A stretch of DNA of 64,000 nt, from contig JASANH010001389.1 in the NCBI GenBank assembly GCA_030248295.1, positions 458,254 through 522,253 of the forward strand. The letters are read 5' to 3'. The notes under the pieces were generated by a model, which worked only from the letters and a program-made list of their open reading frames with translations, had not been told where the DNA came from and did no database searches. Within the stretch, counting starts at the first letter, position 1; each line of letters starts with the position of its first letter. Below are positions 19,809 through 31,787 of the stretch, in pieces. Source of the DNA: Mesodorylaimus sp. YZB2_4. Its lineage: Eukaryota > Nematoda > Enoplea > Dorylaimida > Dorylaimidae. Made by a program: the position numbers and the translations under genes.

Positions 19809-22436
19809 CATCATCATCATCATGTTTTATTCATTAGACAAACGCTGAAGCGCACTCAAGGTCTAAGAAACATTCAGTTATAAACACGCGAGAGAAATCA
19901 CAGATACAAAAAGACGATTTGGAAAGTTCGAGTATGACGACCATGCAGTCTCCCAAGACAACTGATTCCACATATGAGTACACGAGAAAATGTAATGGCG
20001 GAGAAGTTTGCTTATACGCATCAAAAAAGTGCTTAGGCGTATCCAGGTGATGCGGCTCACAGGCTTGACGGGTGGCACGGGACACAGATCGATGTACAAA
20101 GCGACTATTGGAAAAATCATGAAAGCCATGATAAAAGCGATAAAACTGACACAGCTTTAGACCTTTCCTTCTGTCATGTAGTGAAGTCCACCCATCGCGA
20201 ACAGATCCCAGGACCACTGGATGTACGTGTCTGCCCAATCTGCGTCTAATAGCCGCAATCATATTGATCGCTTTTCGAACAATCAAAGAAACGTGCTCAC
20301 TAAATTTCATATCACAGGAAAATACACTGCCGAGGTATTTTACCTGATCAAAGAAATCAAGTTTCTGATTGTTCAAATACAAATCTGGATGGGAGGAGAG
20401 CACATTATGACCATAGCGAAACAGAATCGACTGGTATTTTGAGATGTTGAAATCCAGACCAGCTGATTTGACCCAGGACGAAATGAAATCAATCATAGGC
20501 TGGACAACGGTAATCAACTCATCCAATTTCTGGATGGGAACAAAAAGAGCCGTGTCATCAGCGTATGTTTGTAATAGTCGACGATGCGTTGGTGCACATG
20601 GTGTTGTGACCATCGCCGCTTGGGGAGGCCTGGAGTTCTTGGGGGTGTGCCTTGGGCAGTTGGCTCGGTGAGGAGGAGCCAGGGCGGTATAAGAGCAGGC
20701 CGCCTGGAGAGATCGGGGCTCTCCCTTGCTTGTTTTCACTCGATTCGGGTCCATCTGTTTTGTTCTGAATTTGTGGGAAGCCACCCCTTGTGTTGTCCAC
20801 CCTATTGGCAGAACTGTGGGGCAGGCCAGGCGCCAGCCAGGGACCTTCGATTAGCATACTCTCAAAGGGCCTCTGCGGTTGTCGTTTCCTTTGGTTCGTA
20901 CTGGAAGAGTCCAGGAGTTGACTCCAGGGCAGGTACTTGGTTTGTCTGCGGATTGTCTGTGGGTAAGATCTAGGACGGCTGAGACATCGTCGTGCTTTGT
21001 TGTGCTTCGTAAAGGATCCTCTGGTGTTGACGGAAGTCTTTACTGCGCCACCGACTGTGGAACTGCTCGTCAGCGTAGGCACCTTAGGACCGGGTGCATT
21101 CGACCAGCAGCCAGGCTAGTGTATCATCGCACAGAGCAGTTGCACGCACCCTTGGGAGGCGCGGTAAACACGCCTGAGGGGTTTGTTGGGGAATCGGGAC
21201 CTTAGTGATCGAAACTCTGCAGGAATAAGCCTTTCTACCAGGCTTGGGCTATTGAAGACCTTGGAGCGCTCGCTTGTAAGATCAGCCCGAACCCGCCGGT
21301 ACGAGCGCGAAGAAGAGCTGTCGCGCTCTCACAAACAACAACCATAACAATGGAAATTTGGCTTGAAATTTAACGCGCAGATCGTTGATGTATAGGCGAT
21401 GAATAAAGTTGGACCGAGGACACTTCCTTGTGGCACTCCAGAGGTGACAGGGATATCAGCAGACGAATGACCATCAATGACCACGAATTGTGAACGATCC
21501 GACAAGTACGAATTGAGCCAGCGAACCAGCTTGCAGGAAATTCGGTGGTCCCGTTGGAGCGACCCTAAAAGAAGAGGGTGAGGTACTCGGTCGAAAGCCT
21601 TTTTGAAATCCAGAAAAACGCCCACAACGAGTTTGTATTTTTTTGAATTCAGATGGTCATGAATAAATTGACTGGCTGTGATCAAGGCCGTATTTGTACC
21701 ACGACGCTTGGTGAACCCATGTTGTTGAGGGGAAGTTGTAAGGAAGGATCGTAGAATGTTGTCTACGTGGCGCTCCAATAATTTTGGAAAAATGCATTAA
21801 GGAAATTGGCCGGTATGCTTTCAAATCACTCTTGTCACCAGACTTAGGGACAGGCGTAACCTTGGCACGTTTCCAGTAAGACGGGAAGGATTCTTCGGAG
21901 ACAGACCGATTGATCAATGCTGTGAGAGCGGGAGCATTTGCGGGCGCAATAATTTTAATTATTTGTGTCGTAATACCATCTATACCAGGTGCACAGTTTC
22001 TCCGGAGGCGTTTGATTTCGCTGAGGACGAAGTTAACATTTGCAGAGTAATCGAAGAAGTCGTCATTATCTGGCCCGATTGGAACAAACTCTCCGAAATA
22101 GGTTCAGTTGAAATTCGGCGCAAAATGATCATTCAGGGCTTCAGCCTTTTCTCTGGTGGTCAGTATCGGGTGACCGAGATCATTTACCAGCGCTGGCACT
22201 TTCCGAGACTCGGCTGTCAGGCGACGATAAGCAGTCCAGAAATTACCTGGCGAGTCTACATCGGCAAAGGTTTTCTTGACGAATTCGATCTTTGACTTTT
22301 CAATTTTTTTTTTGCATTGTGCACGAAGGAATGAGAAAATTCGCTTATCTGTGATGTTGGCACTTCGCTTCCATGTTTTATATGCCTCATTTTTCTTCCG
22401 TATAAGCCACGGTAGAAATAGTATAGTAGTATGTCA
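19809..22436 (-). mobile_element. decayed non-LTR retrotransposon (Jockey/CR1-like RT)
   Basis: This is a 5'-truncated copy read on the minus strand. Ordered motifs of a non-LTR reverse transcriptase can be followed: an upstream segment with FWTAYRRLTAESRKVPALV and ALNDHFA (22300-22100), NCAPGIDGITTQIIKII, VTPVPKSGDKSDLKAYRPIS, GVFLDFKKAFDRVPHPLL, TSGVPQGSVLGPTLF and then YADDTALF, followed by thumb-like sequence and the C-terminal WNQL motif. It is dead: there is an in-frame stop near 22105, a frameshift near 21780, another near 20000, and a large insertion splits the RT before YADD. The 3' end carries AATAAA followed by a short TGA/ATG trinucleotide tail, typical of some LINE tails. The exact clade would need a phylogeny. 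Confidence 0.9.
20567..21343. mobile_element. GC-rich insertion nested in the reverse transcriptase
   Basis: About 775 bp separate the conserved N-F-H-C-Y reading at 21345-21360 from the A-D-D-T-A-L-F reading at 20540-20562 of the retrotransposon, so this block was inserted after the element landed. It is clearly more GC-rich than its host and carries no recognisable domain; its longer frames look like by-products of high GC. Its ends are GTTTGT and ACAAAC, a weak 6-bp inverted match. A clean target-site duplication is not obvious (TATG versus TACG). It could be a non-autonomous transposon or another class of insertion. Confidence 0.65.
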
Positions 22437-25876: not shown

Positions 25877-27290
25877 AAATCGTTTCGTGTAAAATGTGTC
25901 CCTTCGCCCTCGAGTGCGCATAGGCGTTTGGTGATGTGGTAAAAGATGAATGAAGGAGATGGAAAACGATGCCTCCTAAGTTTTGGCTCTTTATCGATTA
26001 GATCAGGATGGTGTGACCCCAAAGCGACATGTCTCTGTTTTGTTGCGTTGCGTCATCTCTGCAACCAGACTGCATCGCGCACCAGTCTGCACGCTTGCAG
26101 CAACATCGAGTTCGAGATGATGTTTTCGCCCCCTGCTGGCTTGCAGTGGCCATGTAGGTTTCAGCTCCCATTTGAACAGATTATGTGCTCCTGAGCACCA
26201 TACAGTACATAATAGCACAGTTCTGATCACCCTCTGATGTGGGAAATTTTGTCAGACTTGGAGTCCATAAAGACACAGTATGATGTACCGTGGCACAACC
26301 GTGTGCACATGTTCTTCCGGCAATGCTATCAATGCCATCGAACCTCCTCTGCCAGTTGTAGGCGTATTTCTAATCAAAATTATTAAACCGAAAGCGGCAT
26401 CGTACGAATTTGGGGAAATAAGTTTCACTTCCTGTATCCAAAGGACGTAAGCCCCACTGCGTTACTCCAACGCATTTACAGGATGCATCAGCATCAATCA
26501 TAGGAGGAGCAAAAAACTCTGAAGCTCTGGAAAGCGTTTAAAAGCGGGCCGACTCCTCTTGGAGGATTTATCTCATGATCTAAGGGCGACACTATGATAG
26601 ATTTCCTCGTCAGAAGCACTGATGCATCAGATGATACAAGCAAGTCCGTATCAGAACACGCTGACTGGTTGCCAGTGACCCATAAAATATTTTCTCAACA
26701 CAAATAAAAAACAATACGACTCATCACCACCGCAGGGCTCAGGACATAAGGACGATATTTGGTATTTCTATTTATACAGTCGGGAACGGTGGACACCGAA
26801 GTGCGGGAACGGAATGCGGGAACGGTGGACACCGAAGTGTGCCCCGAATATCGGCGACGCCGTCCGAAAAGCTTTGTCCAATATCGGCCGGGCTCACGAT
26901 CATCCTGGGTGGATGTCTAAGGGACGTGAAGGGTGGTATGATGGCTGTGGCTGTCCTTCAGCTTCAGCGAGTACTTTCACGAAACTTTATTTAGACCAAC
27001 ATTGGGCAGTAATAACACACGTAAGAGGACGCCTGGACATGCTTTATTGTTTAGTTCCGAAAATCCTCATATCAGATCAGTTTAAAACTTGAGTATTGAA
27101 CAAAAACAGGTCCAGTTAGCATATTTAAAAAAACGCAGAAAACTTCACTCGAAATCGGCGTAATGTAGAATGAAAAAGGACGCATAAAAAGAAAACCTAG
27201 ACACTCTATATTACTAAGTTCTTACGCTAGCTTCTATCAGATGCACGACGTCATCAAGAAACCCACTGAACTGTGTCATCGATTTCTCGA
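25877..27290. other. intergenic with a short direct repeat
   Basis: No gene is supported. A 23-bp sequence (CGGGAACGGTGGACACCGAA plus GTG) occurs at 26781-26803 and again at 26817-26839. The minus-strand 3' UTR of the VCPIP1-like gene is expected at the right edge. Confidence 0.5.
26781..26839. repeat. 23-bp direct repeat, two copies
   Basis: Identical 23-bp copies start at 26781 and 26817 with a 13-nt spacer. It looks like a recent local tandem duplication in non-coding DNA. Confidence 0.85.
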
Positions 27291-30195
27291 TCAGCCATTA
27301 TTTTTCTCGCAGCGGCCACTCAGTCCAGCCGGAACCAGCAGGCAGATGCTGTGGACACTTTCGTGCACGATGCAGTGATCGCTGCCCAAACACACGAGCA
27401 ACGAGTCGTCCACGTCCACTTCGCAGAAACAAAATTTCTGAAAAAACAAGTGTCAACAAGCGCAGTGCAGAAAAAGTTGACTCACTCACGGCATCCCCCA
27501 TCAGCGGCAAGGTGAAGTGGCGGTCAGTCCTCTCATACAGTCGCGCGGCGTAATGGAAGTAGAAACCGCCGAAGTGGAACAGCTCCCTCTTGGAGCACAG
27601 CAGACGCCAACGGTCCTCTTGGTCGTAGTTCCTCAGCCGCTTCTCCAACTCCCCGAGCACGCACGCATCGATGGCCTCCTGGGTAGAGTTCAGCTCCTTC
27701 AGTTCTTGCTCGAAGGTCGGCTTGCCCTGAAAACCACTTGCATGCACTCTCAGGCAGAGGCAGCCACGGTGGACCCACTCACTCGGATCTCCTCCACCCT
27801 CTTGTTGTGCTCCATCAGCATCTCCGTGGCCGACTTAAAAATAACGTCGATGTCCCCTGGCTGAAAGACACACGGTCCATAATCGAGGGCATTCGTAATC
27901 TTTTATCAAAGACCCCTCACCCCCACTTCGTCTCGACTGTCCTGCTGTCCCTCTGGACCACTGTCCTCGATCAACCCGTCCTGCAACTCGGCCCGCGAAA
28001 TTTTGCAAAAGCATTCGTTGAAATGCATGTTGCGGTGAGGCGAGTGCAGACTGGAACTCGTCTGCTCCACGATCTCAGTCAACACGACTCCATCTAACCC
28101 ATTCACATCGATCCCTGAAAGGAAGTTCCAAGGCGTTTTCGGGATGACAAACCTGACCCTAACGTACCACGTTTCGCGAGCTTCTCGATCACTCGGCGGG
28201 TCACCTCGTCCACGGTACTGTTCAGTTTGTGGTCAGATTCGTCACTGAACCACAGGACGCGCTCCTTCACCCGCTCCCCATTCGCCTGGATTTGCAGCTC
28301 GATGCTGAAACGCAGAGTCCACTTAGCACAGCGCGTCCGGGCAAGGACAGACCTCGAACTTACGTCCTCGGCGCGTTGTCGTATTCGACGCCGTCGAAAA
28401 AATGCTTTTGCTTCCTGAAGCACCACGAATTCGGCGCCCTCGTGGCTGTGTGGTCCCCGTTCTTGTACTCGACAGTTCCGTTAATTTTCTGCTTCCTCAG
28501 ATGTCTGAAACAAACGTCAGCAATGGCCGCAATGCGACAGTTGCTTGTGTCTTACTTGTCCGATTTGCACTCTGGACACGAGGCTGCCTCCGATTTCACC
28601 AGGATTTCGCACTGCACGCAACGGAGCAGTTTTCCGTTGGTCGCCGCCATCACGATCTTCCTTCCCGTATCGCCTGAAACCTGGCCTCCAAGTTTTCCAC
28701 GACTCTGAAAAATCGTGCCTTCCTACCTTTTACTTGTTCATTGAAATCGCGCGCCCACTCGGCCAACAAGCGGGGATGGACGGACCCCTTTTTCACCGCC
28801 TCGTTCTGGAAAGCCGTCACAATGCGACGCAAGTTTTCCGGCTTGCAAGTGAAAAAAGGCTCAGCTATTGAGAGAATAATTTAAAGAGACCGGACTTGCC
28901 TTGAAATACTTTCCGTTGGCCACCTTGCACAGGCCTTGTTCGTCAAAGTCCACGTAGTGGGCCACCATCGCCTCGCTCAGACCGCCCCAAACCGGTTTGA
29001 ACCACTCCTTCGGAAGTCGGATCGTCGATACTGCGCGTTCGTTGGCCGTCGCCACCAGAATCGATTTCGTCGCACGATTGTCGTTCGACCAAGCAAAAAC
29101 CAGAGGCGAGATCTTTCGGCCACCAGCGTCTCGACAGTCTTCAGGACGCCGCAGGAAGGGCACGAAGACGTTGATGGTGAAGGGCGACTTTGAATCGAGA
29201 AGCAGGATCGTCCTGCAAAGAACATTCGCCATGGCGGCTAGCTCGAGTACGCAGTTGCGGAGGCCTTCGACAGACGAAATGTACTTCCGGTCGATCATGG
29301 CCCACAATTTGTCGTCGTTTAATCGCTTTTTGTACTCGCGTCCTGACTGCCGCAGGTGCTTGATCGTTTCTTCGACGATCCTGTTCGCAAACACCTCGCG
29401 CCCAGTGCAAGCCCTGCTCACCAACGCCGCCGAGTTCCACGGCCACTTTGTTTCAACGGTCGACAACGGAACCAGACCGCGATTTTCGTTCAACTTCCCG
29501 ACTGTCTGCAGCAGGGGCGACAGATATTCGACCACGGCTTTGTCCATGCCATATCTGAAATGGAGGAGATGTTGCTGCGACGAGGGATATGGCATTTCGA
29601 GCGTGGTGTCTTATTGCTCCGCATGAACCCACAGCGACTTACTCGATCAAATCGACGTGTTCGTCTCGAATTCCGAAGGCGAAGTCGCCGAGCATGACAA
29701 CATTAAACGGTTCCTTTCGTCCCATTTTCGACAGTTTCTTCACCTCGCCGCTTTGCCAATCGACGCCGTAATGTTCGAAGTCATGCTGCATCACTAAGGC
29801 GTGCCCGTAGCCCATCAACCCGTCGATCATCTGGCCAGCCATTTCGGCCCGACCTTTACCCAACGCGCCTTGCATTTGCAGCAGAGACGCCCGAGAATTG
29901 TACCAATCGTCCACTTCTTGCTGCGATTTGGCCTCGACGATTCCTCGAAGTTGTCCAACAAGCAGGCGGAGACGACACCACCAACAATTGACGTGCGTTG
30001 ATGTCTCGAAGAATATCAACGGCCGACGACACTTTTCGCAAACGGCACCACGCATGACGAGAGCTTCTTTCAACAGTTCCGCAATTGTCGTACGATCGTA
30101 TTCTAGTAAAGCGATGCGACAATTGAGGAAAGAATACTTGCCACAACGAAAAAGAATACTGGACCATTCCAAGCTTGATGCTTGTAATTGGAGTC
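27291..30195 (-). CDS. VCPIP1 (VCIP135)-like protein with inactive OTU domain
   Basis: Ten exons: 30195-29643, 29554-28900, 28859-28727, 28673-28556, 28504-28364, 28304-28168, 28114-27921, 27860-27783, 27726-27490 and 27437-27291. They hold 2,393 nt in one frame; the first needs one base from an upstream exon carrying the start, which I could not place. The intron after 28900 appears to be GC-AG. VCPIP1 is a p97/VCP- and syntaxin-5-associated OTU deubiquitinase that acts in Golgi reassembly. Matching blocks run in order: a zinc pair (CEKCRRP, NCWWC), VVMLGDFAFGIRDEHVDLIE, LRNCVLELAAMANVLCRTIL, FAWSNDNR, zinc-binding CVQCEIL and CPECKSD, HFFDGVEYDN, and LWFSDESDHKLNS. Where active members have D-G-x-C this protein reads T-K-W-P-W, and the catalytic His segment reads RATKSIL, so the enzyme should be dead. 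The last exon is Cys-rich (FCFCEVDVDD) and of unclear origin. The product is about 800 aa, shorter than vertebrate VCPIP1. Confidence 0.85.
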
Positions 30196-30691
30196 CTGCA
30201 ACGAAAAGAGACAATCACTTTACACCCTGTCTACGTGAATCAGCGTTGGTTAACCCTTCCCTTGTCAAATTTGTGGACTCATATTCTACAGTACGGGGTC
30301 CACACTTTATAAGTTGTTTTTGATCGATATCTCCCGAACCGATCAAAATATCGCGAAATCCCATCGTAGGGTTCTCAGGTACGTGTATCAGCGAAGGCTC
30401 TTCATCAGTATACCCAAACGAGACTAACAGCTGTTATCTATGAATTTGCTGTCAAGTGCTTACTTGCAGCACATATGTATCCGTACACTAGATGCCATCG
30501 GTGGCGGTGCTGGCTTGCGAAGTCTTTTGCATATATGGTGGCTTACTGGCCGACAGGCTGAAGAATTTAGACGACATACGGCACGCAAACTGCCCATTCC
30601 CGTCCGGTGGCCCTCATAATACAATAAGACTGTGGCCAGTCTGCCCTGGTCTAATCCGTCTAAGCTGCCGATGGTAAGTTTAAACTTGTGG

Positions 30692-30960
30692 CGCGGTGGT
30701 GCAACGGTTCCTTGTTCGTCTCTCCGTATTGCTTGGGAGCGATTGGCTGGGCTCATTCCGGGTTCGATCCCCGGTCGAGTTGAGAGACGGAAGCCAAACG
30801 AGTAGAAAGTCTCGGCTGTCGAACACCGACAGGGTTCAAAGCTCACCCGCCATCGTCCGAGGAAGTCGGTGTCCTGTCCAGGATACTCTCGTGTGGAGGT
30901 GCTCCTAGTGGAGACACGCAGAGGGACGCTGCTGGTCCCCGCACAGCCTCGCTTATAAGG
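30692..30960 (+). mobile_element. tRNA-derived SINE
   Basis: The head has a pol III A-box-like GGTGGTGCAACGG and a perfect B box within CCGGGTTCGATCCCCGG, the latter forming a T-arm-like hairpin. About 170 bp of unrelated body follow, including GAGAGACGGAAGCCAAACGA. Similar words (GGAGACGAAAGACAAACGA) follow the B box of the minus-strand copy near 40060-40400, so the two belong to one diverged family. No poly(A) tail is evident. Confidence 0.65.
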
Positions 30961-31023
30961 TTTGACTGCTAGCCGGTGTCGCATGTCAAACCAGCCTCAA
31001 GTCGATGTAAGTGGGAGGGATAA

Positions 31024-31787
31024 TTTGACATGGATATTTGCCCATGTCAAAGTAACCGCTGGTCATAATATTCGCTCATGTCCAGACTTAGTGCATCCAA
31101 TACGAGTTACGTCAGACTTAGGATGCGGATGGTGTTTCGACTTGGTTGGGCCGTTACATGAAACTGAGAACGAGACCGGGTATGGTTTTTTGAATATAAA
31201 GTAGGCACTTGAGATGAGACTGTGTCCACAGTCCAAAATAGTCTATCAATTTTGAGCATTCTGCGGTAAAGAATTTCGCAATGAATTTTGCAATGATTTT
31301 GAACGTCACATGTGTGAGAAGCTTGGTATCAAAAAAGCTTTTTCGACAGCGTATCAGTCGTCTGGGTGCGCAAGAAATCGAAAGAGCTCGGAATCAACAC
31401 TAATGGCGTCATAAGGAAAGTCAAGTGTCAAACACGACACGTCATCGATTCTCTCCCAAAGCCAACTAGCGTTAGAAGTATCCGTGGAGATGGCAACTGC
31501 TCGTTCCGCAGCGTGATACGCGCGATTATTTGCGATCAGATCAAGAAGGCAGGAAATTGATATCACTAGGCTTCGCTCCAAGTTTTCTTACACTTGTTCC
31601 TCCATGGTTGAATATTTAGTAACTGTGCGTTCTGTGTCTTCGTTGACAAAGGTGATGCTTGTTGGAAAGAAATATCAGGTCTAAAATATTTTGCAACTTA
31701 AAAAATTATACCCGGATACTTTGACATGACCCCGGTTACATTGGCATACTGATATGTCAATGTAACCGACCGGCTACTTTGACATGG
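31024..31787. mobile_element. fold-back element carrying an OTU fragment
   Basis: The left end is a hairpin, TTTGACATGG (31024-31033) with CCATGTCAAA (31042-31051). CCATGTCAAAGTAACCG (31042-31058) is repeated in reverse complement at the right end as CGGCTACTTTGACATGG (31771-31787), with 16 of 17 bases matching. Next to it another hairpin (31733-31768) and a further copy of ACTTTGACATG (31718-31728) reuse the same words. These nested inverted ends suggest a non-autonomous DNA transposon of about 760 bp. The broken OTU ORF lies inside. Confidence 0.6.
31366..31683 (+). pseudogene. OTU-type cysteine protease fragment, frameshifted
   Basis: The frame contains VRSIRGDGNCSFRSVIRAII, which matches the catalytic-Cys segment of OTU proteases (D-G-N-C-x-F-R). 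The frame stops at 31559-31561, but the shifted frame continues in OTU-like style (EIDITRLRSKFSYTC, then SSMVEYLVTV) to about 31683, so one frameshift near 31550 explains the break. The His-bearing C-terminal part is not seen. OTU domains of this kind are common in transposon-borne proteins of animals, and this copy sits within inverted repeats. It is not part of the VCPIP1-like gene, which lies on the other strand. Confidence 0.6.

Follow-up and report, generated by a model that had tools for sequence, protein, structure and literature searches.

A predicted family of VCPIP1-like proteins with asparagine in place of the catalytic cysteine in the genome of a Mesodorylaimus nematode

Introduction

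About 13% of deubiquitinases (DUBs) are considered inactive (PMC10919355). Pseudo-DUBs are already known, and so is a pseudo-OTU, OTULINL/FAM105A, which carries the broken triad Asp139/His350/His352 (PMC7862380). In human VCPIP1, the catalytic cysteine is Cys219, a UBX domain (residues 773-852) anchors p97, and a further region, VCPID (589-666), contacts the p97 D2 domains (PMC12394548). Among the matches listed in the open-licence literature, as judged from titles and abstract openings, there was no inactive VCPIP1 paralogue.

Here we describe a VCPIP1-like gene of Mesodorylaimus sp. YZB2_4 located in a stretch of 64,000 nucleotides, hereafter the window, along with its relatives in the genome. 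An initial annotation of the window had read this gene as a VCPIP1-like protein devoid of both OTU catalytic motifs, possibly retained by selection as a pseudo-deubiquitinase and possibly acting as a p97-bound scaffold.

Results

Structure of the window gene and homology to VCPIP1

The gene was modelled from genomic DNA as ten predicted exons on the minus strand (30055-27291), comprising 750 codons and no internal stops (Table 1). Its introns are GT-AG with the exception of intron 2, which is GC-AG, and the GC donor of this intron is common to the window gene and to two further copies described below, C184a and C184b; exon 2 (29554-28900) is preceded by the acceptor TTTCAG. The whole model aligned with human VCPIP1 at E 2e-43 (phmmer) as two collinear segments (residues 7-411 and 430-529), the OTU exon alone reached E 3.5e-9 in the same kind of comparison, and the VCIP135_N domain (PF19437) was recognised in the protein at E 3.6e-17, above the Pfam cut-off. 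These values indicate that the resemblance to VCPIP1 is not due to chance. The four VCPIP1 blocks named in the initial annotation were all found, in order, within this single open model; as for their assignment to 28900..29554, LAAMANVLCRTILLLDS does lie in that interval, but LGDFAFGIRDEHVDLIE belongs to exon 1, HFFDGVEYDN to exon 5 and LWFSDESDHKLNS to exon 6.

Table 1. Position of the exons and active-site codons of the VCPIP1-like gene in the window
Feature	Position	Strand	Remarks
Exon 1	29643..30055	-	VCIP135_N domain, zinc-finger-like CxxC...CxxC; 3' end at a phase 2 intron (LIE|YG); carries LGDFAFGIRDEHVDLIE
Exon 2	28900..29554	-	OTU-like domain without catalytic Cys and His; GC donor; carries LAAMANVLCRTILLLDS
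Asn178 codon AAC	29434..29436	-	Aligns with human VCPIP1 Cys219
Thr300-Lys301 codons	29065..29070	-	Thr300 at 29070-29068; align with His-Tyr of C85 and human VCPIP1
Exon 3	28727..28859	-	Stalk region
Exon 4	28556..28673	-	Stalk, CxxC...CxxC knuckle
Exon 5	28364..28504	-	HFFDGVEYDN block; second aligned stretch, human 535-633
Exon 6	28168..28304	-	VCPID hairpin region, carries LWFSDESDHKLNS; VCPID limits 589-666 as given in PMC12394548
Exon 7	27921..28114	-	No convincing match among Protein Data Bank sequences
Exon 8	27783..27860	-	Gene model
Exon 9	27490..27726	-	C-terminal domain common to C85 and C30
Exon 10	27291..27437	-	Contains the stop codon

In the C-terminal part of the protein, exons 7-10 taken together gave a best E of only 0.3 against Protein Data Bank sequences, and the last 218 residues found no match in human VCPIP1 with phmmer up to E 10. 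The counterpart of the exon 9 domain in the paralogue C85 showed a weak alignment to human VCPIP1 904-981 (domain E 0.031). A papain-like OTU fold of the window exon is supported by sequence alignment. A model of the OTU exon built by AlphaFold2 from seven sequences was of low confidence (pLDDT 46.6), and a Foldseek search of the PDB with this weak query returned no matches at E up to 0.001, so that the fold assignment is one drawn from sequence.

The neighbouring genes encode an acetyl-CoA carboxylase, a protein kinase and a BPI-like protein. A reverse transcriptase fragment (RVT_1, E 1.6e-16) was observed at 21332-21796 on the minus strand. At 31318-31560 on the plus strand, 1.3 kb upstream of the VCPIP1-like gene, there is a short frame with RGDGNCSFRSVIRA that appears to be an otubain-like remnant (Peptidase_C65, E 0.0014, 18.6 bits for a cut-off of 24.3) and is not VCPIP1-like. 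A search of the window gave no Rfam family at or above its gathering score, and a search allowing at most one mismatch did not find the SL1 leader of nematodes.

VCPIP1-like genes in the genome

Searches of the assembly (145 Mb, 1067 contigs) with the OTU exon, the N-domain protein and Pfam VCIP135_N revealed at least seven VCPIP1-like genes: the window gene (C65), C184a, C184b, C121, C30a, C30b and C85. The counts are lower bounds, and exclude a weak match on C36 (E 0.41); a fragment on C184 (L008, query residues 112-183, one stop), which does not include the Cys site, was likewise left out of the six copies treated below. This degraded extra OTU exon with a stop (L008/L015) lies on the same contig as C184a and C184b.

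All genes but C85 lack the cysteine, and these six fall into three lineages: the window group (window gene, C184a and C184b), the C30 pair, and C121. Over the first 400-odd residues, the window protein is about 97% identical to the two C184 copies, and identity among the three lineages is 36.7-42.3%; the six copies share 25.2-27.5% with C85 and 26.5-29.2% with human VCPIP1. The frame is open over the whole model in four of the six (window, C184a, C30a and C30b). For C121, three exons were modelled and are open, its later exons being open stretches recognised by eye. C184b is damaged, with the acceptor of exon 8 lost and a 7-base deletion in exon 10. One weak donor, GTCACG, is present in C30a, and in C30b an alignment gap directly follows the same GT.

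C85 (L007/L014) is the only VCPIP1-like gene found with both Cys and His. It matched human VCPIP1 at E 1.8e-63 and the Pfam OTU family at E 2.9e-13 (exon) and 2e-12 (full model), and over the first 400-odd residues it is 29.6% identical to human VCPIP1, the corresponding value for the window gene being 29.2%, so that in plain identity C85 is no closer to the human protein. Its motif is S-P-G-N-C instead of D-G-x-C. Mutation of the Asp of the D-G-x-C motif abolished cleavage in Arabidopsis OTU1 (PMC3950621), and the activity of C85 is therefore not certain. As evidence that would speak against its own reading, the initial annotation had named a second, active paralogue beside an untranscribed window locus; the paralogue part agrees with the residues of C85, which is putatively active as judged by its Cys and His.

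Active site of the Cys-less copies

In the window protein, the string T-K-W-P-W, originally placed at the active-site loop itself, stands just before the catalytic position when this is counted gap-free from the shared VSRA; the cysteine is indeed replaced, by the Asn that follows the string (N178). The predicted loss of both catalytic residues was also borne out, with Cys changed to Asn178 and His to Thr300; the His found at the latter position in C85 and human VCPIP1 is presumably the catalytic one. In our alignments, every one of the six Cys-less copies has Asn in the Cys column, where C85 and human VCPIP1 have Cys. The His column contains Thr300 in the window protein, Ser in C121 and His in C30a and C30b, the residue being lost in four of the six copies. 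Since His survives in both C30 copies, the invariant loss is that of the cysteine. The Tyr following the His position is Lys in all six copies, and further derived changes are common to the three lineages: H242 of C85 and human VCPIP1 is replaced by an acidic residue, F244 by Ala and L187 by Cys. Out of 73 OTU columns common to C85 and human VCPIP1, 26 are retained across all three Cys-less lineages.

The Pfam OTU family (PF02338) was undetected in the window protein and at all six Cys-less loci in a genome search that returned 36 matches at E up to 1. This total is above our expectation for a small animal genome; OTU matches may possibly be carried by mobile elements, which is a guess. A scan of viral contigs with a four-sequence OTU alignment produced 61 pattern matches and no relatives. 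An alternative exon restoring D-G-x-C was considered and rejected: between 27000 and 31000, searched in all six frames, the sole string of this type was DGGC at 27502 on the minus strand, downstream of the OTU exon, and none was seen at the OTU position.

Phylogeny and duplication history

In a tree built from the seven genes and human VCPIP1 (eight sequences), the six Cys-less copies were separated from C85 and human VCPIP1 with an ultrafast bootstrap of 100, and the same split was recovered at 98 when the columns around both active-site positions were masked. The rooting is weak because the active side of the tree consists of two sequences, C85 and human VCPIP1. The branching order of the three lineages had support values of 49 and 67 and differed between the full and masked trees. 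Introns 1-5 occur in identical order and phases (2,0,1,2,2) in the models of the window gene, C30a and C85, and C121 agrees in the first three. On these sequence comparisons, one loss of the cysteine in the ancestor of the six copies would be the simplest account.

The more recent copies share defined blocks of DNA. A duplicated unit of 3.2 kb, introns included, is common to the window and the C184 copies, with 95.5% DNA identity to C184a (27101..30248, minus strand) and 94.3% to C184b (30233-26972). When 5.8 kb of the window was compared with 10 kb for each C184 copy, no homology beyond this unit appeared among matches of more than 150 bases. C30a and C30b have a block of 4.9 kb in common, at 93.9% identity. 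The three pairwise unit matches agree in their 5' ends to within about 30 bases, and TTTTCGTTGCAG follows some 40-65 bases downstream. It was observed that the unit starts just upstream of this conserved acceptor-like sequence (window 30250-30195; matching places L009 and L010), which is possibly a 5' intron or a trans-splice site. Two other origins of the copies were rejected: haplotigs, given that the flanks of the window and C184 are unshared in the stretches compared, and retroposition, given that introns are retained.

As a separate observation on the assembly, the 488 kb contig C73 (L048/L049) contains a stretch of low GC content that looks mitochondrial and carries COX1 in both orientations, and 15 COX1 matches were found genome-wide. 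Read with mitochondrial table 5, a code of our own choosing, a COX1 frame stays open for 523 codons. The stretch represents either nuclear copies or a chimeric contig.

Selection on the Cys-less copies

Values of dN/dS below 1 were obtained for the recent copies (0.34-0.42): 0.420 for window-C184a (Fisher p 0.017), 0.346 for window-C184b (p 0.0003), 0.357 for C184a-C184b (p 0.0002) and 0.341 for C30a-C30b (p 0.005), with p values from rounded and small counts and with window-group pairs that are non-independent, two of the three including the damaged C184b. Neutral simulations of two pairs (2000 runs) reached nonsynonymous counts this low at frequencies of 2.05% and 1.2%. The chance of acquiring no stop under neutrality was 0.231 and 0.295 for the two recent pairs, so that their open frames are, by themselves, weak evidence. 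Within the OTU exon alone, window-C184a showed 1 synonymous and 4 nonsynonymous changes (ratio 1.26), and C30a-C30b showed 3 synonymous and 2 nonsynonymous changes. Among the three old lineages, differences amounted to 0.464-0.492 at first, 0.355-0.383 at second and 0.645-0.666 at third codon positions, a pattern as under protein-level constraint.

Elements linking to p97

The UBX domain (Pfam) was undetected in the window, C30a and C85 proteins, in a search run without the UBX of human VCPIP1 as positive control. Genome-wide, six UBX matches above the cut-off were found and none of them was at the seven VCPIP1-like loci, in a search that an intron-split UBX could escape. The VCPID hairpin was aligned to the human sequence; by eye, the position of Tyr623 corresponds to Asp in the window protein and to Glu in C85, and that of Phe638 to Phe in C85, the alignment of the window protein ending before it. 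The members tested, among them C85, gave no sign of a UBX, which makes it unlikely that they anchor to the p97 N domain in the UBX manner. The proposal of a p97 scaffold is thereby weakened, although the stalk and the VCPID hairpin do align with human VCPIP1. The apparent absence of UBX, also from C85, raises the question of how such proteins would meet p97.

Discussion

The sequence comparisons suggest that the window gene is probably a member of an old family of non-catalytic VCPIP1 paralogues, described here from one genome, in which DUB chemistry would have been lost once and the family then retained. The catalytic Cys would have been exchanged for Asn on a single occasion, with remodelling of the preceding loop and of the His region, and the dead copies would then have been kept as non-catalytic proteins. 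The initial observation is real and not a product of chance, and the six copies most likely constitute a retained pseudo-deubiquitinase family. The preference of the initial annotation for a selected pseudo-deubiquitinase over decay is supported by the change of Cys to Asn in six of the seven genes, by fully open models in four of those six, and by dN/dS below 1; what it did not foresee was the gene family itself, the retention of His in the two C30 copies and the damage in C184b. Most copies look intact despite the replacement of Cys by Asn, and they probably work without cutting ubiquitin.

As for the mechanism, we tentatively propose, with somewhat less than even confidence, that these proteins act as dead partners or competitors of C85 in the same assembly, where they would only bind and in this way set how much cutting occurs. 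They might occupy the assembly of C85 through a VCPID-like contact with p97 D2, or through common substrates or adaptors. A binding-only role beside C85, probably within its assembly, is favoured over a simple p97 scaffold because no UBX was found and the Tyr623 position, as read by eye, is not Tyr. It is a doubtful conjecture that a VCPIP1 duplicate, having lost its cysteine once, founded a multi-copy, Asn-bearing family of dead DUBs which, without a UBX, tunes the single Cys-bearing VCPIP1 or p97 in this animal lineage; if true, evolution would here have produced a natural dominant-negative family acting in membrane fusion or in the quality control exerted by p97.

Next best after the binding-only role is that of a reader of ubiquitin or ubiquitin-like proteins, in which the OTU groove would bind, shield or present chains and p97 would not be needed. 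This reading, which overlaps with that of a retained pseudo-deubiquitinase, seems rather unlikely to us as the specific function: few parts of the exon are as well conserved in the six copies as the stretch that follows the active site (VSRAC.GRE.FA), and known inactive DUBs act as scaffolds or activators (PMC10919355), but OTULINL, the nearest known pseudo-OTU, reportedly does not interact with ubiquitin (PMC7862380), and H242 and F244 are altered in all three lineages, so that a surface may have changed as well. The main sceptical rival is slow decay, that is, redundant VCPIP1 duplicates which lose function one by one and whose frames are open owing to their recency. The damage in C184b, the stop-bearing fragment L008 on the same contig, and dN/dS values that are not low would fit with such a process, as would the 5' breakpoint of the duplicated unit, which precedes the assumed start codon by some 200 bases; because this breakpoint is near the start and no common DNA was found beyond it, promoters may have been left behind. 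We nevertheless consider decay unlikely, in view of three lineages at 37-42% identity in which frames are still open, fully or over long stretches, splice sites are kept and the second codon position is the slowest, and of the identical Asn and Lys at the active-site positions of all six copies.

A cryptic enzyme, using another residue as nucleophile or having gained a different reaction, is improbable. There are precedents in USP52, called inactive and later reported active (PMC10919355), and in USP53/54, likewise later reported active (PMC12037411), and in every one of the six copies the Asn is followed, nine residues on, by a Cys; this Cys, however, stands in the conserved post-loop stretch at a position occupied by Leu in C85 and human VCPIP1, and four of the six copies have lost the His as well. 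Very improbable, finally, is an artefact of assembly or modelling, in the form of haplotigs or of a wrong exon choice hiding the active-site exon. The gene models were predicted from DNA alone, with a weak donor in C30a and GC donors in the window gene and the C184 copies, but in the stretches compared the flanks beyond the 3.2 kb unit do not match between the window and C184, two copies are present on C184 and two on C30, and from 27000 to 31000 the OTU position has no D-G-x-C-type string.

A retained pseudo-deubiquitinase family would also bear on VCPIP1 itself. In human cells, the VCPIP1 C219A mutant fails to rescue Golgi area (PMC12394548); against this background, a family that keeps the body of the protein and drops the cysteine suggests that VCPIP1-like proteins may have functions that need no ubiquitin cutting.

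In comparison with C85, the window gene has the same domains, first five intron phases that are alike and a C-terminal domain in common, and it differs in that C85 retains Cys and His. Human VCPIP1/VCIP135 (PDB 8yka, 9dil, 9mpr) presents the same order of N domain, OTU, stalk, HFxDGxEYDN block and VCPID hairpin; compared with it, the window protein has its catalytic Cys and His replaced, no UBX was found, and the model is of 750 codons versus 1222 residues. The likeness to OTULINL lies in being a broken-triad OTU paralogue beside an active relative, which in that case is OTULIN, at about 33% identity (PMC7862380). OTULINL belongs, on the other hand, to another OTU subfamily, and its Asp139/His350/His352 contrast with the Asn that takes the Cys position in the six copies described here.
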